This document shows, in pieces, positions 16,795 through 35,896 of a stretch of DNA of 36,355 nucleotides; the first letter of the stretch is position 1, and every line of letters begins with the position of its first letter. Position numbers and translations under genes: made by a program. The notes beneath the pieces are model-generated. The model had not been told where the DNA came from. It saw only the letters and a program-made list of their open reading frames with translations, and made no database searches. Source of the stretch: a virus; IMG/VR virus record IMGVR_UViG_3300031630_000011, positions 1 to 36,355 of that record; one strand, 5' to 3'.

Positions 16795-16860
16795 GTTTTT
16801 TGAAAATAAGTACTCAAAAGTTTTTTTATGTCAATATAAATGTTTATATTAGCATTATAC
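16795..16860 (+). promoter_or_regulatory. Promoter of RNA ligase 1 gene
   Basis: A GTTTTTTGAAAATAAGT upstream box, GTTTTTTTATGTCAA and core TATATTAGCA (16845-16854) match nine other promoters in the window. The core fits the Bacteroidota TAnnTTTG type. It overlaps the in-frame ATG at 16840, which argues for the later gene start at 16873. Confidence 0.7.
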
Positions 16861-16872
16861 TTAAAAATACAT

Positions 16873-17868
16873 ATGGTACTATTAGAAGAATATTACGAAC
16901 AAGGTTGGTTAATCAAACAAACCCATCCAACACTTCCATTAACTATTTGGAATTATTCTCAAGCCACTCAGTTTGAGAAAAAATGGGATAGTATCACTTT
17001 ACATTGCAGAGGATTGGTTACAGATAATGAAGGTAACATAGTTGCTAGACCATTTCAAAAGTTTTTTAATATTGAAGAAGCACAACATACACCAACTAAA
17101 GAATTTGATGTCTATGAAAAGATGGATGGATCTTTAGGTATTGCATTCTATTATGATGGACAATGGGTATTTGCATCTAGAGGATCATTCGCTTCTGATC
17201 AAGCAATTAAAGGTGCTGAAATGTTTAAAGAGAAGTTTCAAGAATCTCATTTTGATAAAGGTTCAACTTATATGTTTGAAATCATTTATCCTGCAAATAG
17301 AATCGTAGTAGATTATATTGGTGAAGATAGATTGGTTCTATTAGGTAGAATCGGAACTATTTCTGGTGAAGAGTATTCATTAGATACTTTCAGAGAAAAT
17401 GGATATGATGTCGTTAAAAAATATCATACTATTAAAAACTATGAACATTTAAAAACATTGAACTGGGAAAATAAAGAAGGATTTGTGGTTAAGTTTGGAA
17501 ATGGCGATAGATGTAAAATCAAATTTGAGGATTATCTTAGGTTACATAAAATAATGACTGAAATCTCTACAAAATCGGTATGGGAATGTTTAAGTAAGGG
17601 TGATGATATTTACGAAATGTTGAAAGATGTGCCGGATGAGTTCTTTAAGGGGGTTGATGTGTATATTAACGAACTAAAATCCGAATACCGTTTGATAGAA
17701 GAACTAACAATTGCAAGATTCAATATTAACAAAAATCTTAATAGAAAGGAATTTGCAGAATCGGTACAATGGAATAAGTATTCAGCTGTATTATTTAAAA
17801 TGTTGGATAACAAAGATTATTCAGATACCATTTGGAGACTTATTAAACCAGAATATAAAAGATTATAA
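16873..17868 (+). CDS. rnlA: RNA ligase 1 (T4 RnlA-like)
   Basis: This ATP-dependent ligase seals RNA breaks; T4 Rnl1 repairs tRNAs cut in the anticodon loop by host nucleases. Motif I is EKMDGSL with nucleotidyl Lys83. Others are FASRGSF (Ib), YMFEIIYP (III), EGFVVKF (IV) and CKIKFEDY (V). ATG at 16873 gives 331 residues, near T4 Rnl1 (374); an upstream ATG at 16840 lies in the promoter. A P-loop kinase at 20095 could supply end repair. Confidence 0.9.
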   Translation: MVLLEEYYEQGWLIKQTHPTLPLTIWNYSQATQFEKKWDSITLHCRGLVTDNEGNIVARPFQKFFNIEEAQHTPTKEFDVYEKMDGSLGIAFYYDGQWVFASRGSFASDQAIKGAEMFKEKFQESHFDKGSTYMFEIIYPANRIVVDYIGEDRLVLLGRIGTISGEEYSLDTFRENGYDVVKKYHTIKNYEHLKTLNWENKEGFVVKFGNGDRCKIKFEDYLRLHKIMTEISTKSVWECLSKGDDIYEMLKDVPDEFFKGVDVYINELKSEYRLIEELTIARFNINKNLNRKEFAESVQWNKYSAVLFKMLDNKDYSDTIWRLIKPEYKRL

Positions 17869-20094: not shown

Positions 20095-20496
20095 ATGAAA
20101 GAATTATATTTACTAAGAGGTTTACCAGGATCTGGAAAAACAACACTAGCAAAATCAATTGGAGGAATCCACATGGAAGCAGATCAATATTTTATGGAAG
20201 ATGGTGTATATAACTTTGATGCAACCAAATTAAAGTTAGCACATAATTACTGCCAAAATCAAACTAGTGCATGGATGAAAACTGATGGTGAACAGGTTAA
20301 TGTTGATAAAATTGTTGTTTCAAATACATTTACACAAGAATGGGAAATGAAAGCATATTATGATCTTGCAAAAGAACATGGATATACTGTGTATTCTTTA
20401 ATTGTAGAGAACAGACATGAAGGTGAAAACATTCACGGAGTTCCAGTTGAAGCGTTAGATCGAATGGAGAATAGGTTTGAAGTCAAATTAAGATAA
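20095..20496 (+). CDS. P-loop kinase, possibly polynucleotide kinase-like
   Basis: The Walker A motif GLPGSGKTT (residues 9-17) is followed by an HMEADQYF segment where Asp may act in catalysis, and an R-x-E-x-E-like NRHEGENIHGVP lid. The pattern fits the predicted kinase family that includes T4 Pnk and ASKHA-independent NEDD4BP2-like kinases. At 133 residues it lacks a phosphatase domain. In a phage with RNA ligases, 5'-end repair of RNA is a reasonable role, but this is inference. Confidence 0.8.
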   Translation: MKELYLLRGLPGSGKTTLAKSIGGIHMEADQYFMEDGVYNFDATKLKLAHNYCQNQTSAWMKTDGEQVNVDKIVVSNTFTQEWEMKAYYDLAKEHGYTVYSLIVENRHEGENIHGVPVEALDRMENRFEVKLR

Positions 20497-22208: not shown

Positions 22209-22282
22209 GGACCTCTAGCACAATTGGTTAGTGCACTTCGCTCATAACGAAAAGGTTGATGGTTCGAATCCATCGGGGTCCA
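22209..22282 (+). tRNA. tRNA with CAT anticodon (elongator Met or Ile2)
   Basis: Acceptor GGACCTC pairs with GGGGTCC. Anticodon arm CTTCG CTCATAA CGAAA gives CAT. C1-A72-type mismatch of initiators is absent. The GGACC start recalls the Ile tRNA whose CAT is modified to read ATA; an ATA-rich phage would benefit. Choice between Met and Ile is open. Confidence 0.88.
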
Positions 22283-22292
22283 CTGCAATTAA

Positions 22293-22368
22293 TTGTTCGT
22301 AACTTTAATAAAATAAGTTACTTAAAGTTTTTTATATCAATTAAAAGTGTTATATTTACTTATAACAA
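22293..22368 (+). promoter_or_regulatory. Promoter inside tRNA array
   Basis: TTGTTCGTAACTTT (22293-22306), AATAAGTTACTTAAAGTTTT and core TATATTTACT (22351-22360) match the promoter family. It would drive the structured stretch at 22376 and the following tRNAs. Confidence 0.7.
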
Positions 22369-22375
22369 ATAAGAG

Positions 22376-22785
22376 ACTGTATTGATTACCGGTTACAAGC
22401 TTTGGTTCTTAACCCACCATTCACGTGGGGTTCTTAATTGAATTGAACAAACCGGGACGCTTTCATAAACGCATCCAAACGGGCAGTAGGGGATGATGAA
22501 AAGAAATAAATCGTACAATAAGCAAGAAATAGTCAACTTAAGATAAGGCTAAAGTAATGTATGAAAAGAATATCCGAAAGGAAAATAACGAAGCTCAGCG
22601 GTATCAATCAAACGCCTCCACGTGGCGATACTGGAAATTGGTTATGAACCTCGGCCGAGGAAAGCAACCAAAACTAAGTTTGAATAATGGTAACATGAAG
22701 AATGTGGTTCGAGTCCACACCCGTAATAGCCAAAGGGTTGAAGCATTGAGGATGATGCGTAAGTTATAACAGATCTGCAGATCTA
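22376..22785 (+). ncRNA. Non-coding, hairpin-rich stretch between tRNAs
   Basis: No good coding frame exists over 400 bases after a strong promoter. Helices include CCGGTT/AACCGG (22389/22450) enclosing AACCCAC/GTGGGTT-like (22411/22425), CATCC/GGATG (22472/22491), CGCC/GGCG (22613/22624), the self-paired CCTCGGCCGAGG (22649-22660), a T-arm-like TGTGG..CCACA (22703-22719) and palindrome AGATCTGCAGATCT (22771-22784). It may be a long structured phage RNA. No known family is recognised. Confidence 0.5.
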
Positions 22786-22841
22786 GAAGTGGTCGGTGAA
22801 AGCTGTACAGTACAAGCATAAGGTTCGAATCCTTACACTTC
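22786..22841 (+). other. tRNA-like fragment lacking one arm
   Basis: GAAGTG (22786) pairs with CACTTC (22824-22829 region end) and a perfect T-arm TAAGG TTCGAAT CCTTA (22819-22835) follows. Only 27 bases lie between acceptor and T-arm, about 14 fewer than in a normal tRNA, and no canonical anticodon loop is found. It could be a decayed tRNA, the 3' part of a split one or a tRNA mimic. Exact ends are approximate. Confidence 0.4.
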
Positions 22842-22847
22842 ACTATT

Positions 22848-23270: not shown

Positions 23271-23413
23271 AGGTTCCTTACAGCAAACAAACTCTATAAG
23301 GAAACTGCTATCGCAAGATGTGTAGGTTCAAGTCCTACCTCCCTAACAAAATTAATACAAAATTAGGGAGTGGTGGAATTGGTAGACACGGCAGTCAGAA
23401 ACAATAGGAACCT
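23271..23413 (+). tRNA. Probable circularly permuted tRNA-Leu, anticodon unclear
   Basis: The 3' half comes first: anticodon-stem half ACTGC (23304-23308), Leu-type variable arm, T-arm GTAGG TTCAAGT CCTAC and acceptor CTCCCTA (23339-23345). After a 17-base linker comes the 5' half: acceptor TAGGGAG (23364-23370), Leu D-arm and GCAGT (23391-23395). Acceptor pairs 7/7 and anticodon stem 5/5. Flanks AGGTTCCT (23271) and AGGAACCT (23406) pair 8/8 and enclose both halves. The loop that would form lacks T33, so the mature anticodon is not clear. A decayed tandem duplicate is the alternative. Confidence 0.55.
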
Positions 23414-23421
23414 GTTAGTAT

Positions 23422-23509: not shown

Positions 23510-23605
23510 ATAAGAGAAGCAAGTGAAGCTGATTAAATTGAGATCAAGGTAAAGGTTAACCTCTCATTCATGCAGTAACCTCGAAAGACCCGAAGCTTCT
23601 CTTAT
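23510..23605 (+). ncRNA. Stem-closed small RNA or spacer between tRNAs
   Basis: ATAAGAGAAGC (23510-23520) and GCTTCTCTTAT (23595-23605) form an 11-bp stem that encloses 74 bases with an inner AGGTTAACCT hairpin. The exact fit between two tRNA genes suggests a processed small RNA. No family is recognised. Confidence 0.5.
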
Positions 23606-23698: not shown

Positions 23699-23753
23699 AG
23701 GATGCATGCAGCAACCAAAACCAACTTTATTTAGAAAAGCAAAACTGCATCCT
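23699..23753 (+). ncRNA. Hairpin element with CAGCAA loop motif
   Basis: AGGATGCA (23699-23706) pairs with TGCATCCT (23746-23753). The loop starts TGCAGCAA and is A-rich with an AAAGCAAAA end. The same order, stem then CAGCAA then A-rich loop, occurs at 23271 and 31193. The bases to 23835 hold small hairpins such as GTCTCGGTAGAC (23801-23812) and nothing else recognised. Confidence 0.45.
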
Positions 23754-23839
23754 GTTATTTAAAAAGTGTCTTGCTCCGCTCTGAAGAAATTCAACGACAA
23801 GGTCTCGGTAGACAAAATGCATTTGATTCTACCCAAAAT

Positions 23840-23912: not shown

Positions 23913-24600
23913 CTAATTTAATAGATTGCAAAATAGTAAATAAGCTGACGGGCCAGACAATATAGCTGGAACATATAACCGGACTTATCGCTAGAATGAG
24001 AGATAGACTCATTGATCATTAAAATTAATGGAGAGTATTGAGGCTAATACCCATAGGATGCTCCATATATTTAATAGTAAACCTTTCACCGAGGAAACCC
24101 TTTAAAACAGATTCACAACTGCAGAGGTCGTTAGGTTGGGCAATATGAAATGTGAGTATTGCCCACTATTAAATTTATTGAAACTTTTTATACATTTGTT
24201 ATAGGATATATAAGAGTTCAAAAGAACTCGGCAAGTAGAACTGATGGCTGCCTAATAATGCCACTACCTTTGAATTTTCAGTTGACTGATGGAACTAGAC
24301 ATCATACTATCAAGGACTTAGATACCTTGGGACTTGCAATGAGTCCTTAAACATTGTTGGCAACAACCACTCGAGCCAATATCCCATAAACGAGAGTGGT
24401 CTGAGGAATAAAGACAGGTAATAGAGTCTCCCAGTAATTTGACTTTGTTTTATGTGGTAAGACACTAATGCGTTTAATTGAAAGAAAAGAAACCGTTAAA
24501 ATCTAGTTTAAAAATTCTAATTTAAATGCAAATGCTTTATGGTCCTGGTTTCGGCCAGGATCATAGACATTTGTCAATTATAGAACAAACAAAAAGTAAT
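23913..24600 (+). ncRNA. Long non-coding, hairpin-dense RNA region
   Basis: About 690 bases have no plausible gene but many helices: TGGGCAATA/TATTGCCCA (24137/24157), GAGTTC-AAAA-GAACTC (24214-24229), CAAGG/CCTTG (24311/24325), GGACT/AGTCC (24330/24342), GTTG-GCAA-CAAC (24356-24367), CCACTC/GAGTGG (24367/24394) and a 10-bp stem ATGGTCCTGG/CCAGGATCAT (24539/24555). Large ornate phage RNAs such as GOLLD and ROOL also lie among tRNAs, so a relative or a new class is possible. No family match is claimed. Confidence 0.55.
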
Positions 24601-24607
24601 TAATATA

Positions 24608-24748
24608 ATGCAGAGTAACAACAGTAACGGCACAAGCCAAGTAGAAAGTACAAGAAACACATTTAATAAAAATGTTTCTAATTTAAAAATGTTAGGAAGT
24701 TCTAGAAGAATCCAATGGGATAGTAAAAGAAGACACCGAGCAATTTAA
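24608..24748 (+). CDS. Possible 46-residue basic protein in RNA region
   Basis: ATG 24608 to TAA 24746-24748 encodes a polar protein, Ser/Asn-rich first and Arg/Lys-rich at the end (SSRRIQWDSKRRHRAI). The A-rich stretch before ATG resembles other leaders in the window. It might bind RNA. It could also be chance within a non-coding region. Confidence 0.35.
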   Translation: MQSNNSNGTSQVESTRNTFNKNVSNLKMLGSSRRIQWDSKRRHRAI

Positions 24749-24843
24749 AACAAAGTGAACAGTACTTTAAATACTTCCCATAAGAACAGTGTCCCAGTTA
24801 AAGTCTTTTGCGAGGATATTCGTTATAAAGGATATTCTCTTTT

Positions 24844-24918
24844 GATCGATTAGCTTAGGGGAAAAGCGATCGGGGAGCAATTCCCGATAGATGATAGGTT
24901 CGAGTCCTATATTGATCA
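24844..24918 (+). tRNA. tRNA-like gene with enlarged anticodon arm, identity unclear
   Basis: Acceptor GATCGAT pairs with ATTGATC, D-arm GCTT/AAGC and T-arm ATAGG TTCGAGT CCTAT are sound. The anticodon arm has a 6-bp stem (ATCGGG/CCCGAT) and an 8-base loop GAGCAATT without the usual T33. GCA (Cys) is one possible reading. It may decode unusually, or may be a tRNA mimic. Confidence 0.65.
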
Positions 24919-24923
24919 CATAT

Positions 24924-29456: not shown

Positions 29457-30896
29457 ATGAAATTAGTAGATGCAATTCGTCAAGATGATGTCGTAACAGA
29501 AAATGGTATGGCAACAAACTCAACTTCTTTAAATACAGTTGTTGATTTATTCTTTAATATCGGAGCAATGAGAGGCCAAGATAAAGCTAGACTTATTAGT
29601 CAATTTTCTTTGGCGTTTAATACTGATCCATTAAGAGCAATGAAGATATTGTTTTGGGCAAGAGATGTTAGAGGTGGTGCTGGTGAAAGACAGATCTTTA
29701 AAGATATTGTACTTTATTTAGCAGAAAACCATACTGCAGCAATTGAAGGAAACTTAAACCTTATTTCAGAATTTGGAAGATGGGATGACTTGTTAGTATT
29801 TGAAGGAACTAAATTAGAAACTAAAGCATTTATATTAATAGCAGAAGCAATAGAAGATAAGAATGGTTTATGTGCTAAATGGATGCCACGTAAAGGTGCA
29901 ACAGCTGCAAAGCTTAGAAACTTTATGGGCATGACACCAAAGCAATACCGTAAAACTATTGTTGGATTAACACAAGTTGTTGAAACATTAATGTGTGCTA
30001 AAGAATGGGAAGCTATTGAATTCTCTAAGTTGCCATCTGTGGCAAGTGCTAGATATCAAAAAGCTTTTTGGAAGAATGCACCAATTGGATATGAAAACTA
30101 TGTGAATGCTCTTAAGAAAGGCGAAGCAACAATTAATGCAGGTGCAGTTTATCCTTATGACATCACTAAGTCTTTACATAGAGGTGATAAAGATGTAGCA
30201 AGCGCACAATGGAAAGCTCTACCTAATTTCTTAGAAGGAGCAACTGAAATGATTTTACCGATGGTAGATACTTCAGGATCAATGTCATGCGCAGCAGGAA
30301 ACAATGCAAATGTAACTTGTATGGATGTTGCAATCTCATTAGGACTTTATATTTCTGAGAGAAATGAAGGACCATTCCAAGATTCTTTCTTAACATTTAG
30401 CGGTTCACCTGAATTACAATATTTAAAGGGAGATTTATACGATAGATTTCAACAAATGAATAGATCTGATTGGGGAATGAATACCAATATAGAAGCCGCA
30501 TTCATGAAAGTATTAGATCAAGCAGTGAAACATGAAGTTAAAGCAGATCAAATGCCAGATAAAATAATGATATTATCAGATATGCAATTTGATGAAGCAA
30601 CAAGTACTAGATCATGGGGAAGCAGAGGAAATACTAACGAATGGAACCCAACCGCACAGCAAATGATTGAAAAATTATACAGTGATGTAGGTTATAAGAT
30701 TCCTAAGATTATTTACTGGAACCTTAATTCTAGACACGGTGATGTACCAGTTGCCTTTGATAAAATGGGAACTGCATTAGTAAGTGGTTTCTCTCCAGCA
30801 ATCTTAAAGTCACTTTTAGGTGGAGATGATTTTACACCATTATCAATAATGGACAAGACAATTATGAATGAAAGATATTCTGATATAACTATTTAA
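29457..30896 (+). CDS. DUF2828/TROVE-like protein with vWA domain (Ro60-like)
   Basis: Residues about 25-260 form an all-helical repeat domain (DPLRAMKILFWARDVRGGAGERQIF, read in two parts) like DUF2828 and related to the TROVE ring of Ro60. Residues about 262-460 are a von Willebrand A domain with a complete MIDAS start, DTSGSMS (271-277). Ro60 binds misfolded RNAs and Y RNAs, some of which mimic tRNA. An ncRNA lies downstream at 31190, as Y RNA genes lie near bacterial Ro genes. RNA binding here is inference. Confidence 0.8.
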   Translation: MKLVDAIRQDDVVTENGMATNSTSLNTVVDLFFNIGAMRGQDKARLISQFSLAFNTDPLRAMKILFWARDVRGGAGERQIFKDIVLYLAENHTAAIEGNLNLISEFGRWDDLLVFEGTKLETKAFILIAEAIEDKNGLCAKWMPRKGATAAKLRNFMGMTPKQYRKTIVGLTQVVETLMCAKEWEAIEFSKLPSVASARYQKAFWKNAPIGYENYVNALKKGEATINAGAVYPYDITKSLHRGDKDVASAQWKALPNFLEGATEMILPMVDTSGSMSCAAGNNANVTCMDVAISLGLYISERNEGPFQDSFLTFSGSPELQYLKGDLYDRFQQMNRSDWGMNTNIEAAFMKVLDQAVKHEVKADQMPDKIMILSDMQFDEATSTRSWGSRGNTNEWNPTAQQMIEKLYSDVGYKIPKIIYWNLNSRHGDVPVAFDKMGTALVSGFSPAILKSLLGGDDFTPLSIMDKTIMNERYSDITI

Positions 30897-30906
30897 AACA
30901 AAAAAC

Positions 30907-31167
30907 ATGGGAAAATACGTAAATCAAATTAACGGAGTTGAACTAGGAAGTTCATTCGATTCAAAATGTGAAAAGCTACTAGAAATGGGAGCAACCCAAG
31001 TAACAGATTCTAAATTTATGGACAATATGATATGTGTTGTAGATAATGGATTTTTTGCAGCGGCAGCGTATGCATATTCTGAATCTGAATATACAGAGTT
31101 TAAATCACCAGATGGTCGACCTAAGAAATGGTTCACATTAGAGAATGTCTCAGAGTACGCACAATAA
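30907..31167 (+). CDS. Conserved phage protein of unknown function (86 aa)
   Basis: Residues ELGSSFDSKCEKLLEMGA and CVVDNGFFAAAAYAYSESEY, then FKSPDGRPKKWF, match a family seen in many large phages. It lies between the Ro-like gene and the ncRNA. Function is unknown. Confidence 0.75.
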   Translation: MGKYVNQINGVELGSSFDSKCEKLLEMGATQVTDSKFMDNMICVVDNGFFAAAAYAYSESEYTEFKSPDGRPKKWFTLENVSEYAQ

Positions 31168-31171
31168 AACA

Positions 31172-31187
31172 AGATATATAATAAAAG
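31172..31187 (+). promoter_or_regulatory. Putative late promoter motif before ncRNA
   Basis: AGATATATAATAAAAG is the exact copy of the motif before the tail sheath gene (2056). No protein gene follows for 400 bases, so it probably drives the RNA at 31190. Confidence 0.55.
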
Positions 31188-31189
31188 AA

Positions 31190-31500
31190 ATAAGGTTTCT
31201 TACAGCAACTTACAAGCAATTATAAATAGCCAAAAATGAAACCTGCAAAGGAACGGTTCAGCAAACCATAACTATACACAGAAAGCCAATAATGTCCACT
31301 AAGAAAGCTTCGGCTAATTACAGACACGGCAAATGGAACGTCTAACCAGTATAAAAAAATCTGACAATGTCAACTTCTCATTAAGGTGAAGAAATAACGC
31401 TGAAGTACAGTAGGCCAATAGTTATTGAAGCTAAGACAATAAAAGAGATATAGCTGCAGAGCCGAATGAATACTAACAACGTTCCTGTTAAACATTAGAA
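31190..31500 (+). ncRNA. Structured non-coding RNA downstream of Ro-like gene
   Basis: No coding frame is credible. Helices: AGGTTTC (31193-31199)/GAAACCT (31238-31244); GGTT (31255)/AACC (31264); AGC-TTCG-GCT (31306-31315), a stable tetraloop; CTTC (31374)/GAAG (31388); and a long-range GGAACGT (31335-31341)/ACGTTCC (31479-31485). A promoter motif precedes and a terminator follows. The first 21 bases nearly equal those before the split tRNA-Leu at 23266. It is a candidate Y-like partner of the vWA protein. Confidence 0.6.
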
Positions 31501-31541
31501 TCCTGGTGAAATTGTTAATAACTTTTTAGCCAGGATTTTTT
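31499..31541 (+). terminator. Terminator of the ncRNA
   Basis: AATCCTGG (31499-31506) pairs with CCAGGATT (31530-31537) and runs into T bases. The loop holds a TTGTTAATAACTTTTT box of the next promoter. Confidence 0.65.
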
Positions 31542-31569
31542 TATGTCATATATTTTAGTTATATTTACA
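31512..31569 (+). promoter_or_regulatory. Promoter of the 31588 gene
   Basis: TTGTTAATAACTTTTT, GATTTTTTTATGTCATA and core TATATTTACA (31560-31569) match the promoter family. The upstream box lies in the terminator loop. Confidence 0.65.
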
Positions 31570-31587
31570 TATACAAAACTACGCAAG

Positions 31588-32235
31588 ATGATAAACAACT
31601 TAGAAATAATCAAACCATTATTAAACTTCGATAAAGAAGGAGACTTTTATATGCTTTATGTTTTTAAACGTAAAAAGGATCAACCAATCGGAGAACGCGA
31701 TAATCACCAATCAGTAAGAACAATTAAAACTTATTGTATTGAAAGCATAGAACATCTTGAAAAGAGATATGACGAGATCATGCAATTGTGTGAGATGTTT
31801 AAAGCTAGAGGATATATTCATGTACAAAAACAAAATCATTTCGATGTGAGTTTAAATATGATGGTTACTTTAGCACAAAGAATACAAGATGGAAATCATA
31901 AACAAAAGGGTTTATTTGATTCTACTGTCGGTAGACTTAATACTAGAGAGAAAAGATGGATCATAGATCTTGATGATGTTACTGAGGTTTCACCAATGAT
32001 GGTTGCATATATTGAATATCAATGTAAACCAATTACTGAAGTTGAATTTGATGATGTAGGAATTCCAATAGGATATAAAGTTGGACCTAAGATCGAGTCA
32101 GTTATACCAACTAAAAGTGGTTTTCATTTGATCACATCTAGATTCGATGTAATGAAATTCAAAGAGAACTATCCAGACATCGACATACAAAAGAAAAATC
32201 CCACGCTACTTTTTTATCCAGATTCGTTAGGATAA
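31588..32235 (+). CDS. Unknown protein with primase-polymerase-like segments
   Basis: ATG 31588 follows the promoter; the in-frame ATG 31543 lies within it. The 215-residue protein has WIIDLDDVTEVS (residues about 124-135), with two acidic residues spaced as in archaeo-eukaryotic primase active sites, and PTKSGFHLITSRFD (about 176-189), like their TKSGxHV motif. An AEP-type polymerase or a degraded relative is possible. Support is limited to these motifs. Confidence 0.55.
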   Translation: MINNLEIIKPLLNFDKEGDFYMLYVFKRKKDQPIGERDNHQSVRTIKTYCIESIEHLEKRYDEIMQLCEMFKARGYIHVQKQNHFDVSLNMMVTLAQRIQDGNHKQKGLFDSTVGRLNTREKRWIIDLDDVTEVSPMMVAYIEYQCKPITEVEFDDVGIPIGYKVGPKIESVIPTKSGFHLITSRFDVMKFKENYPDIDIQKKNPTLLFYPDSLG

Positions 32236-34846: not shown

Positions 34847-35896
34847 ATGGATAAAATCAAATGTTTAAAGTTCCCTAAGATTGAGCAATACAGAAATGTA
34901 GTAAGTGCAATCAATAGAAGTTATTCATACGTAGGTCTTGATGAAAATGGAGATGCTATTTATGATCAACTTAAACCAAAACCTACGATTAAATTCAAAG
35001 GTACAGTAAAGTTACATGGAACAAATGCAGGAATTAGTTATAATGACAAGTTTGGTGTATGGACACAATCAAGAAACAACTCATTTGATTTAGATACTAA
35101 TGCAGATTCTCACATGGGATTCTCATTCTTTGTTAAATCCAACATGGATTATTGGGAAACTGAATTCAAAGACTTTGCATACATCCACAATATTGATACA
35201 ACCAAGTTTTGTATTTCAATCTTTGGTGAATGGGCAGGAAAGGGAATTCAAAAAGGTGTTGGTATTTCTGAAATTGAAAAATCATTCTTTATCTTTGGTA
35301 TTAAAGTATCAAATCCAGATGACGAAGATTTTGTATCTCAATGGTATGATTATAGTAATATCCATGCACCTGAATTGAAGGTTTATAATATGACAGATTT
35401 TCCAACATGGGAAATTGAAATTGATTTTAATGAACCATCAAGAATCTCAAATAAGTTGAGTGAATTAACAATGGCAATCGAAGAAGAATGTCCTGTCGCT
35501 AAACATTTTGGCAAATCAGGAATTGGTGAAGGTATTGTATGGGAAACTAATTACAATGGAACTAATCACAGATTTAAAGTGAAAGGTGAAAAGCATTCAG
35601 TATCTAAAGTTAAGACATTGGCTCCGGTTGATGTAGAGAAATTAGATAGTGTTAACGAATTCGTTGAATATGCAATGACCAGAAACAGATTCAACCAAGC
35701 TTTAGGTGAAGTGTTTAATAGTCCAGTTGAATATGATGTGAAGAAAACCGGAGATCTTTTAAGATGGTTGATTAACGATATCATGAATGAAGAAATTGAT
35801 GTTATGACAGAAAACGGATTAACACCAAAGGATACTAACAAATATATTTCAGTGAAAGCGAAGAACATGTTTTTTGCTGAATTACAAAACGTATAA
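34847..35896 (+). CDS. rnlB: RNA ligase 2-like (T4 RnlB-like)
   Basis: This ATP-dependent ligase favours nicks in double-stranded RNA, unlike Rnl1. Nucleotidyl Lys55 is in the motif KLHGTNAGI (residues 55-63). Other motifs are WTQSRNN (Ia), FGEWAGKGIQKGVG (III region), EGIVWE (IV) and FKVKGEKHS (V). The 349-residue length is close to T4 Rnl2 (334), and the C-terminal helical domain is present. Two RNA ligase families in one window is striking. Confidence 0.92.
   Translation: MDKIKCLKFPKIEQYRNVVSAINRSYSYVGLDENGDAIYDQLKPKPTIKFKGTVKLHGTNAGISYNDKFGVWTQSRNNSFDLDTNADSHMGFSFFVKSNMDYWETEFKDFAYIHNIDTTKFCISIFGEWAGKGIQKGVGISEIEKSFFIFGIKVSNPDDEDFVSQWYDYSNIHAPELKVYNMTDFPTWEIEIDFNEPSRISNKLSELTMAIEEECPVAKHFGKSGIGEGIVWETNYNGTNHRFKVKGEKHSVSKVKTLAPVDVEKLDSVNEFVEYAMTRNRFNQALGEVFNSPVEYDVKKTGDLLRWLINDIMNEEIDVMTENGLTPKDTNKYISVKAKNMFFAELQNV

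Follow-up and report, generated by a model that had tools for sequence, protein, structure and literature searches.

In bacteria, the Ro60 protein Rsr binds the terminal stem of the small RNA YrlA, and the tRNA-like domain of this RNA is bound by PNPase (PMC8394870). A bacterial rsr-yrlBA-rtcBA operon has been described (PMC7790460), and some phages are stated to carry YrlA (PMC7765460, citing Sim and Wolin 2018). Here we describe a 36,355-nucleotide (nt) stretch of viral DNA (IMG/VR record IMGVR_UViG_3300031630_000011, positions 1 to 36,355; hereafter the window), in which a gene for a protein of predicted Ro60 fold is followed by small non-coding RNAs that share a terminal architecture, the clamp. 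The window, a 36-kb piece of a T4-like phage genome, includes terminase and sheath genes and 16 predicted tRNA genes. We conclude that this phage probably encodes a Ro-Y-type ribonucleoprotein (RNP) with the clamp RNAs as partners of the protein. Phage Ro-Y RNPs are known in principle: YrlA in phages has already been stated, and Chen et al. 2014 reportedly found probable Y RNAs close to Ro60 in species of bacteria and phages, so an RNP of this kind is not new as such. New are the distinct clamp paired with the DUF7788 branch of Ro-like proteins, the modularity of its cargo and the match between the clamp and Dictyostelium class I RNA. The literature that we searched contained no described RNA partner for proteins of PHROG 850, the family of the window protein.

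29457..30896, plus strand: predicted Ro60-fold RNA-binding protein (DUF2828/DUF7788, PHROG 850), open reading frame (ORF) of 479 amino acids (aa)
30267..30581, plus strand: codons spanning the residues D271, S273, S275, T343 and D375 of the metal ion-dependent adhesion site (MIDAS), from an alignment of 40 relatives

The 479-aa protein scores above the curated cut-offs of the Pfam profiles DUF7788 (E 9.8e-52) and DUF2828 (E 4.7e-31) and of the PHROG 850 profile "RNA-binding protein" (E 2.6e-151). An AlphaFold2 model built from 40 relatives (predicted local distance difference test 86.8, predicted template modelling score 0.87) consists of a helical ring (approximately residues 1–255) and a vWA domain (approximately residues 262–460). 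A structure search (VIA), set beforehand as a test of the fold, matched this model end to end with Ro60 (1yvr) over 402 residues (Z 22.8, root-mean-square deviation 3.6). The same search returned the Ro60 of Thermus phage phiLo (Z 16.1) and Deinococcus Rsr (Z 12.7), and the next rows below these Ro60 proteins were isolated vWA domains with Z of about 11. A first-pass annotation, made from the DNA letters alone, had described this gene as Ro60/TROVE-like, with a helical N-terminus and a complete MIDAS. The structure prediction bears out the helical N-terminus and the Ro60-type fold, and the five MIDAS residues are invariant across the 40 aligned relatives. The TROVE label fits the predicted fold and not the sequence: Pfam TROVE (PF05731), with matches considered down to E 0.1, does not match the protein, and the window record, KVP40 and LeBron contain no PF05731 match. 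Since a sequence profile of the protein searched against the PDB finds phiLo Ro60 alone, and of this just the MIDAS region (E 0.025), its kinship with TROVE rests on structure. We therefore describe it as a predicted Ro60-fold ring plus vWA domain of the DUF2828/DUF7788 branch. At least 681 sequenced phage records, those of T4-like, Felix O1-like, Listeria, Staphylococcus and Mycobacterium phages among them, contain a PHROG 850 gene; only 2 loci in the cellular genomes searched carry the gene.

The clamp consists of a G-initiated terminal stem of 6 base pairs, three nucleotides, the hexamer CAGCAA, a body of variable length, the closing strand of the stem, and a final UG or AG. For searches we used a covariance model of the clamp, R1, whose E-values are rough.

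31173..31181, plus strand: phage promoter-like motif GATATATAA, about 20 nt before unit 1
31194..31245, plus strand: clamp RNA unit 1, GGTTTC-TTA-CAGCAA ... GAAACC-TG, 29-nt loop, R1 E 1.7e-10
31250..31487, plus strand: clamp RNA unit 2, GGAACG-GTT-CAGCAA ... CGTTCC-TG, 215-nt body
31499..31541, plus strand: intrinsic terminator, AATCCTGG ... CCAGGATT followed by a T run

The first-pass annotation had placed a structured RNA of 310 bases, with its own promoter motif and a terminator, downstream of the gene. The stretch 31190–31541 is indeed non-coding, and dozens of IMG/VR contigs carry a homologue of it immediately downstream of the gene. Instead of one RNA, it holds two tandem clamp units (31194–31245 and 31250–31487) behind the promoter motif and before the terminator, and an 86-aa ORF (30907–31167), absent at this place in many relatives, separates gene and RNA. 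Among 27 homologues of unit 2, both strands of the closing stem vary while the stem is kept, and several pairs of a GCCG hairpin close to the 3′ end likewise differ on the two sides. Folding energy gives no sign of structure (z -0.69, 26 of 100 shuffles equally stable), a sigma-70 promoter scan found no excess, and direct blastn of the RNA against annotated phages returned a single meaningless match.

The motif GATATATAA occurs six times in the window (positions 2057, 4957, 7102, 24205, 26089 and 31173), always on the plus strand, against 1.26 copies expected, and none of 100 shuffles reaches six. Two of these sites immediately precede the tail-sheath gene and the ORF that follows it, and a similar motif accompanies 7 of 23 relatives' units. 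This enrichment makes it plausible that the RNA has its own promoter, and GATATATAA is likely to be the promoter element of this phage. The terminator is a strong hairpin with a T run, recognized by folding and by eye; owing to its long loop, it escaped a pattern scanner. Its sequence differs among relatives, and its position is the same. The gene that follows (31543–32235) belongs to phrog_14949, of unknown function; many phage contigs of IMG/VR contain a close relative, and the Ro-like gene is present in some of these as well.

A pattern finder for the clamp, which requires perfect stems and enforces neither the register of the outer G nor a U at position -2, returned four units that are credible, each on the plus strand of the window: the two above (31194–31245, 31250–31487) and two in the tRNA array (23272–23414, 23700–23754). 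The few other matches were weaker or alternative pairings.

23272..23414, plus strand: clamp RNA unit 3, in the tRNA array, GGTTCCT-TA-CAGCAA ... AGGAACC-TG
23700..23754, plus strand: clamp RNA unit 4, short, GGATGCA-TG-CAGCAA ... TGCATCC-TG, R1 E 2.0e-10

In 128 loci around relatives of the gene, the same finder detected 135 units in the orientation of the gene and a single one on the opposite strand, while nine permuted hexamers gave 0–10 units; a tenth, ACAGCA, was set apart, as it equals the CAGCAA motif shifted by one. Among 57 non-redundant units, the outer G stands exactly 9 nt before CAGCAA in 54 and a U occupies position -2 in 46. A second hairpin around CAGCAA was considered and rejected (17 of 57 units, 14.1 expected). 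Two units in other loci (L258, 150–281; L259, 2669–2767) share a body GAACCTTTCYGGAGGGGAAAG...AAAACTCGCC of unknown kind.

To what extent do gene and clamp travel together? Conservation of the pair in relatives had also been set beforehand as a test, and R1 was run on whole phage records. Thirteen of 15 records with a DUF7788 gene, that of the window included, contain a match at E ≤ 2.6e-4, and 9 of these 13 contributed no training sequence. A small set of eight phages, in which absence of the gene was checked (T4, phiKZ, SPO1, G, S-PM2, crAss001, 201phi2-1 and N4), contains no R1 match below E 0.199. Such matches thus occur in 13/15 gene-positive and 0/8 gene-negative records (Fisher p 9e-5; 7e-4 for the untrained records). 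In 22 further loci, all 17 R1 matches lie near the gene and on its strand, with the qualification that some far loci helped to train R1. A phage with a genuine TROVE protein has other RNAs: in Vibrio phage BONAISHI, the gene for a Pfam TROVE protein is accompanied by two adjacent YrlA RNAs (E 6.9e-14 and 4.2e-7), R1 gives no match, and CAGCAA is absent near these YrlA RNAs. This suggests that, among the cases examined, presence of the clamp follows the protein branch. Phage pir03 was considered as a second TROVE phage; its PF05731 match was too weak to use.

Could gene and RNAs be mere neighbours, the RNAs forming a family associated with tRNA arrays and serving another partner? Units are commonly found near tRNA arrays, and in phiAS5, SNUABM_49 and DLP_6 they lie elsewhere in the genome and none beside the gene. 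Yet the clamp is absent from phages without the gene, including T4, a unit immediately adjoins the gene in at least eight distant lineages, and Ro-fold proteins are known to bind RNAs of such topology. We consider mere neighbourhood improbable, and the protein likely binds these RNAs with the clamp as binding site. KVP40 and phiM7 each carry one unit in the 5′ untranslated region of the gene, and in KVP40 the 3′ strand of this unit overlaps the start codon. This placement suggests autoregulation, a weaker proposal for those phages in which the clamp sits at the start of the gene.

Several points weigh against an RNP of this protein with clamp RNAs, beginning with the three phages that keep their units away from the gene. 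CPX (E 0.18) and Lak-A1 (E 0.12) score weakly with R1, although units are visible by eye near the gene in both, so that all 15 gene-positive records have either an R1 match or a visible unit. The loci are mutually related, so that the counts are not independent, and IMG/VR contigs may be fragments. Base-pair covariation in the clamp alignment A5 (1.09, shuffled 0.24) is inflated because the units were selected for perfect stems, a bias that the hexamer controls answer only in part. The contrast with TROVE and YrlA rests on one phage, BONAISHI. Finally, the YrlA model, tried as a detector, also matches ordinary tandem tRNAs in T4 and G, which lack the gene, and is thus not diagnostic alone. A separate observation concerns Bacillus phage G, which has no DUF7788: the YrlA-model match at 405233–405319 (E 5.8e-7) may represent tandem tRNAs or a true YrlA.

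Units 3 and 4 of the window sit 8 kb from the pair that adjoins the gene, unit 4 starting 12 nt after a tRNA-Arg. Unit 3 encloses a circularly permuted tRNA-Leu-like cloverleaf, in which the 3′ half is followed by a closed acceptor stem and the 5′ half, and which is open at the anticodon loop. Put back into normal order, this body is folded by ARAGORN into a cloverleaf with a long variable arm. Homologues of unit 3 occur in three related loci (L300, L301 and L309). The first-pass annotation had pointed out that some bacterial Y RNAs mimic tRNA; here, it is this sister unit (23272–23414) that does so, and not the RNA at the place it named (31190–31541). We searched for further cases by doubling the body of each long unit and seeking a tRNA across the joint. 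Permuted tRNAs were found in 11 of 48 long units (7 of 44, plus 4 in relatives of the window), compared to 0 of 880 shuffles and 4 of 880 random genomic stretches. The first seven come from the window, S13, Mushroom, LeBron, SNUABM_49 (two) and locus L261, and the other four from L300 (two), L301 and L309. The acceptor helix of some is closed by GAAA or UUCG. Further units of SNUABM_49, phiAS5, KVP40 and DLP_6 contain, by eye, a T-arm plus acceptor only.

The inverse arrangement also exists. In five RNAs, two each in S13 and KVP40 and one in locus L256 (truncated on the 5′ side, where the locus ends), an inverted clamp forms a hairpin in place of the anticodon loop of a tRNA-like RNA that ends in CCA; control pentamers gave 0–6 matches. 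The two S13 RNAs are annotated as tRNA-Ser and tRNA-OTHER. The intact anticodon loop of an ordinary tRNA is missing from these molecules: it is opened in unit 3 and replaced by the clamp in S13 and KVP40.

How might such an RNP work? The clamp would hold the RNA on the Ro-like ring, and the body between its strands would be exchangeable cargo. Short unstructured loops could gate or block the ring; other bodies are large and structured; and the tRNA-like domains, opened at the anticodon loop, would show T-arm, D-arm and acceptor to tRNA-binding enzymes, a presentation that would resemble that by YrlA in bacterial Ro RNPs. During infection, the particle would most likely handle structured RNA, tRNA included, alongside the tRNA array, RNA ligases and kinase of the phage.

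16840..17868, plus strand: T4 Rnl1-type RNA ligase, tRNA repair context (PF09511 E 1e-19)
20095..20496, plus strand: AAA_33 kinase, polynucleotide-kinase-like, context (PF13671 E 1.4e-9)
34847..35896, plus strand: Rnl2/PF09414-type RNA ligase, context (PF09414 E 3.5e-9, PHROG 548 E 4.5e-58)

These three genes, the tRNA arrays that adjoin the gene in several phages, the RtcB near the gene in Listeria phage LP-048, and the bacterial rsr-yrlBA-rtcBA operon point to tRNA handling. A tRNA-centred function is nevertheless the weaker part of our proposal, and we hold it as a possibility with some reserve. The first-pass suggestion that a phage version could act on tRNA fragments or in RNA decay is likewise a conjecture.

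Two narrower roles deserve consideration. The clamp RNAs could be decoys that occupy or mislead host tRNA-directed nucleases or tRNA-modifying enzymes, with the Ro-like protein merely stabilizing them. The tRNA-like bodies are opened, or bear the clamp, exactly at the anticodon loop, a GAAA or UUCG loop closes the acceptor stem in some, genes for Rnl1, a kinase and an Rnl2-type ligase are present in the phage, and for Salmonella YrlA it has been suggested that the tRNA-like domain competitively inhibits an anticodon nuclease (PMC7790460). A tRNA-like body is lacking in many units, however, and the RNAs of S13 and KVP40 have the CCA end of ordinary tRNAs; a decoy role strikes us as rather doubtful, and it is not really exclusive of an RNP. 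Alternatively, the tRNA-like domain could tether the Ro ring to host PNPase for degradation of structured host RNA, as in RYPER. The Deinococcus complex of Rsr, Y RNA and PNPase provides the precedent (PMC8394870, PMC8058203) and its tRNA-like domain has the same topology, but the short units have no tether domain and the link to PNPase is hypothetical, which leaves this role similarly unlikely in our judgement. The data do not separate decoy, tether and repair roles. The preferred Ro-Y-type RNP would connect a Ro protein of phages with tRNA-like RNAs that are open at the anticodon loop, where anticodon nucleases cut. With the clamp defined, RNA partners can be sought by sequence, and standard laboratory phages can serve to test the RNP.

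The tRNA arrays hold other features of note. Between two tRNAs of the window, the stretch 23510–23605 has a closing stem of about 10 base pairs (ATAAGAGAAGC ... GCTTCTCTTAT) and is probably another non-coding RNA. The stretches 22281–22847 and 23914–24843 are long and without a recognized tRNA, and may contain further non-coding RNAs; at 24844–24919 ARAGORN calls a tRNA with a four-base anticodon loop (gcaa) and assigns it no type. Among the tRNAs of LP-048 (locus L165, 1421–1972), about 1 kb upstream of the Ro-like gene, lies a match to ROOL RNA (90 bits, gathering score 99.1, E 7.3e-17). In the locus of Salmonella phage Mushroom (L164, 4540–7340), the annotated tRNA strand is opposite to that of the RF00005 matches, possibly an annotation or display error.

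An Rfam scan of the RNA downstream of the gene gave Dictyostelium class I RNA (RF01414) as the only non-trivial match, at unit 1 (31194–31245; E 5.8e-5 for the record). Class I RNAs measure 42–65 nt, have a terminal stem, an 11-nt motif and a 3′ CUGU, and are reported to be unique to dictyostelids (PMC7919456). Clamp units share the G-initial terminal stem, the 11-nt motif and the 3′ CUG, with a spacing that is one base off. In 22 gene-bearing phage contigs, the best 16 matches of this Dictyostelium-only model (E < 0.0065) all fall on clamp units. The control phages gave one comparable match, in T4 (E 0.0024), which we treat as chance because the motif sits in apparent coding sequence. This concentration on clamp units speaks against coincidence, in which a short stem and UUACAGCAA would have arisen twice for different proteins. 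Still, we lean slightly towards it: all matches stay under the gathering score (best 36.1 bits, 41.5 required), the outer G is at -10 in the Rfam consensus and at -9 in the phages, and the known class I RNA binder, Rnp1A, is an RNA recognition motif protein (PMC7919456). The bolder idea is tentative and, we think, rather less likely to be right: terminal stem, NNN-CAGCAA and NG would be a deep signature read by the DUF2828/DUF7788 Ro branch in phages and amoebae, class I RNAs would be Y-RNA-like Ro partners, and phages would hold a modular set in which tRNAs are rebuilt in both permutations. The clamp gives, for the first time, a testable clue to a possible Ro-type partner of these abundant, developmentally regulated RNAs.

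The possible phage Ro-Y RNP of the first-pass annotation is supported by the predicted fold and the conserved gene-RNA pair, two of the three tests that it had named, with RNAs that are not YrlA by sequence. The Rfam consensus of YrlA (RF02553) has the order T-arm, closed acceptor, D-arm, as do the permuted tRNA units; its model fits LeBron unit 2 over the full length with 39.8 bits, below the gathering score of 69 bits, which is not reached by any window unit either. Of the traits of YrlA, a permuted tRNA-like domain inside a terminal stem is found in 23272–23414 and its relatives, and a position beside a Ro-fold gene in window units 1 and 2 and in LeBron unit 2. The bacterial Rsr-YrlA system and the phage system thus have in common the Ro60 fold with vWA domain, non-coding RNA genes beside the protein gene, a terminal stem with permuted tRNA-like domain, and tRNA repair genes in the genome. 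They differ in that the phage protein is DUF2828/DUF7788 and not Pfam TROVE, that the clamp (stem, NNN-CAGCAA and a final UG or AG) replaces the YrlA basal stem, that many short units have no tRNA domain, and that the inverted permutation occurs within CCA-bearing tRNA-like RNAs. The phage TROVE proteins of phiLo (PDB 9l5y) and BONAISHI are likewise phage-encoded Ro60 folds, in BONAISHI with RNAs beside the gene; there, a Pfam TROVE protein is combined with YrlA and R1 finds no match. Class I RNAs resemble the clamp RNAs in the short terminal stem, the 5′ G, UUACAGCAA just inside the 5′ strand, the 3′ CUG, the variable body, the many copies and the length of 42–65 nt; unlike these, they are eukaryotic, have a spacer one base longer and have no reported Ro-type partner. 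Also close is gp53 of mycobacteriophage LeBron, a "Ro-like RNA binding protein" of PHROG 850. This annotation came from the protein alone and the RNAs are unannotated in the record, but gp53 belongs to the same family as the window protein and is directly followed by three clamp units.
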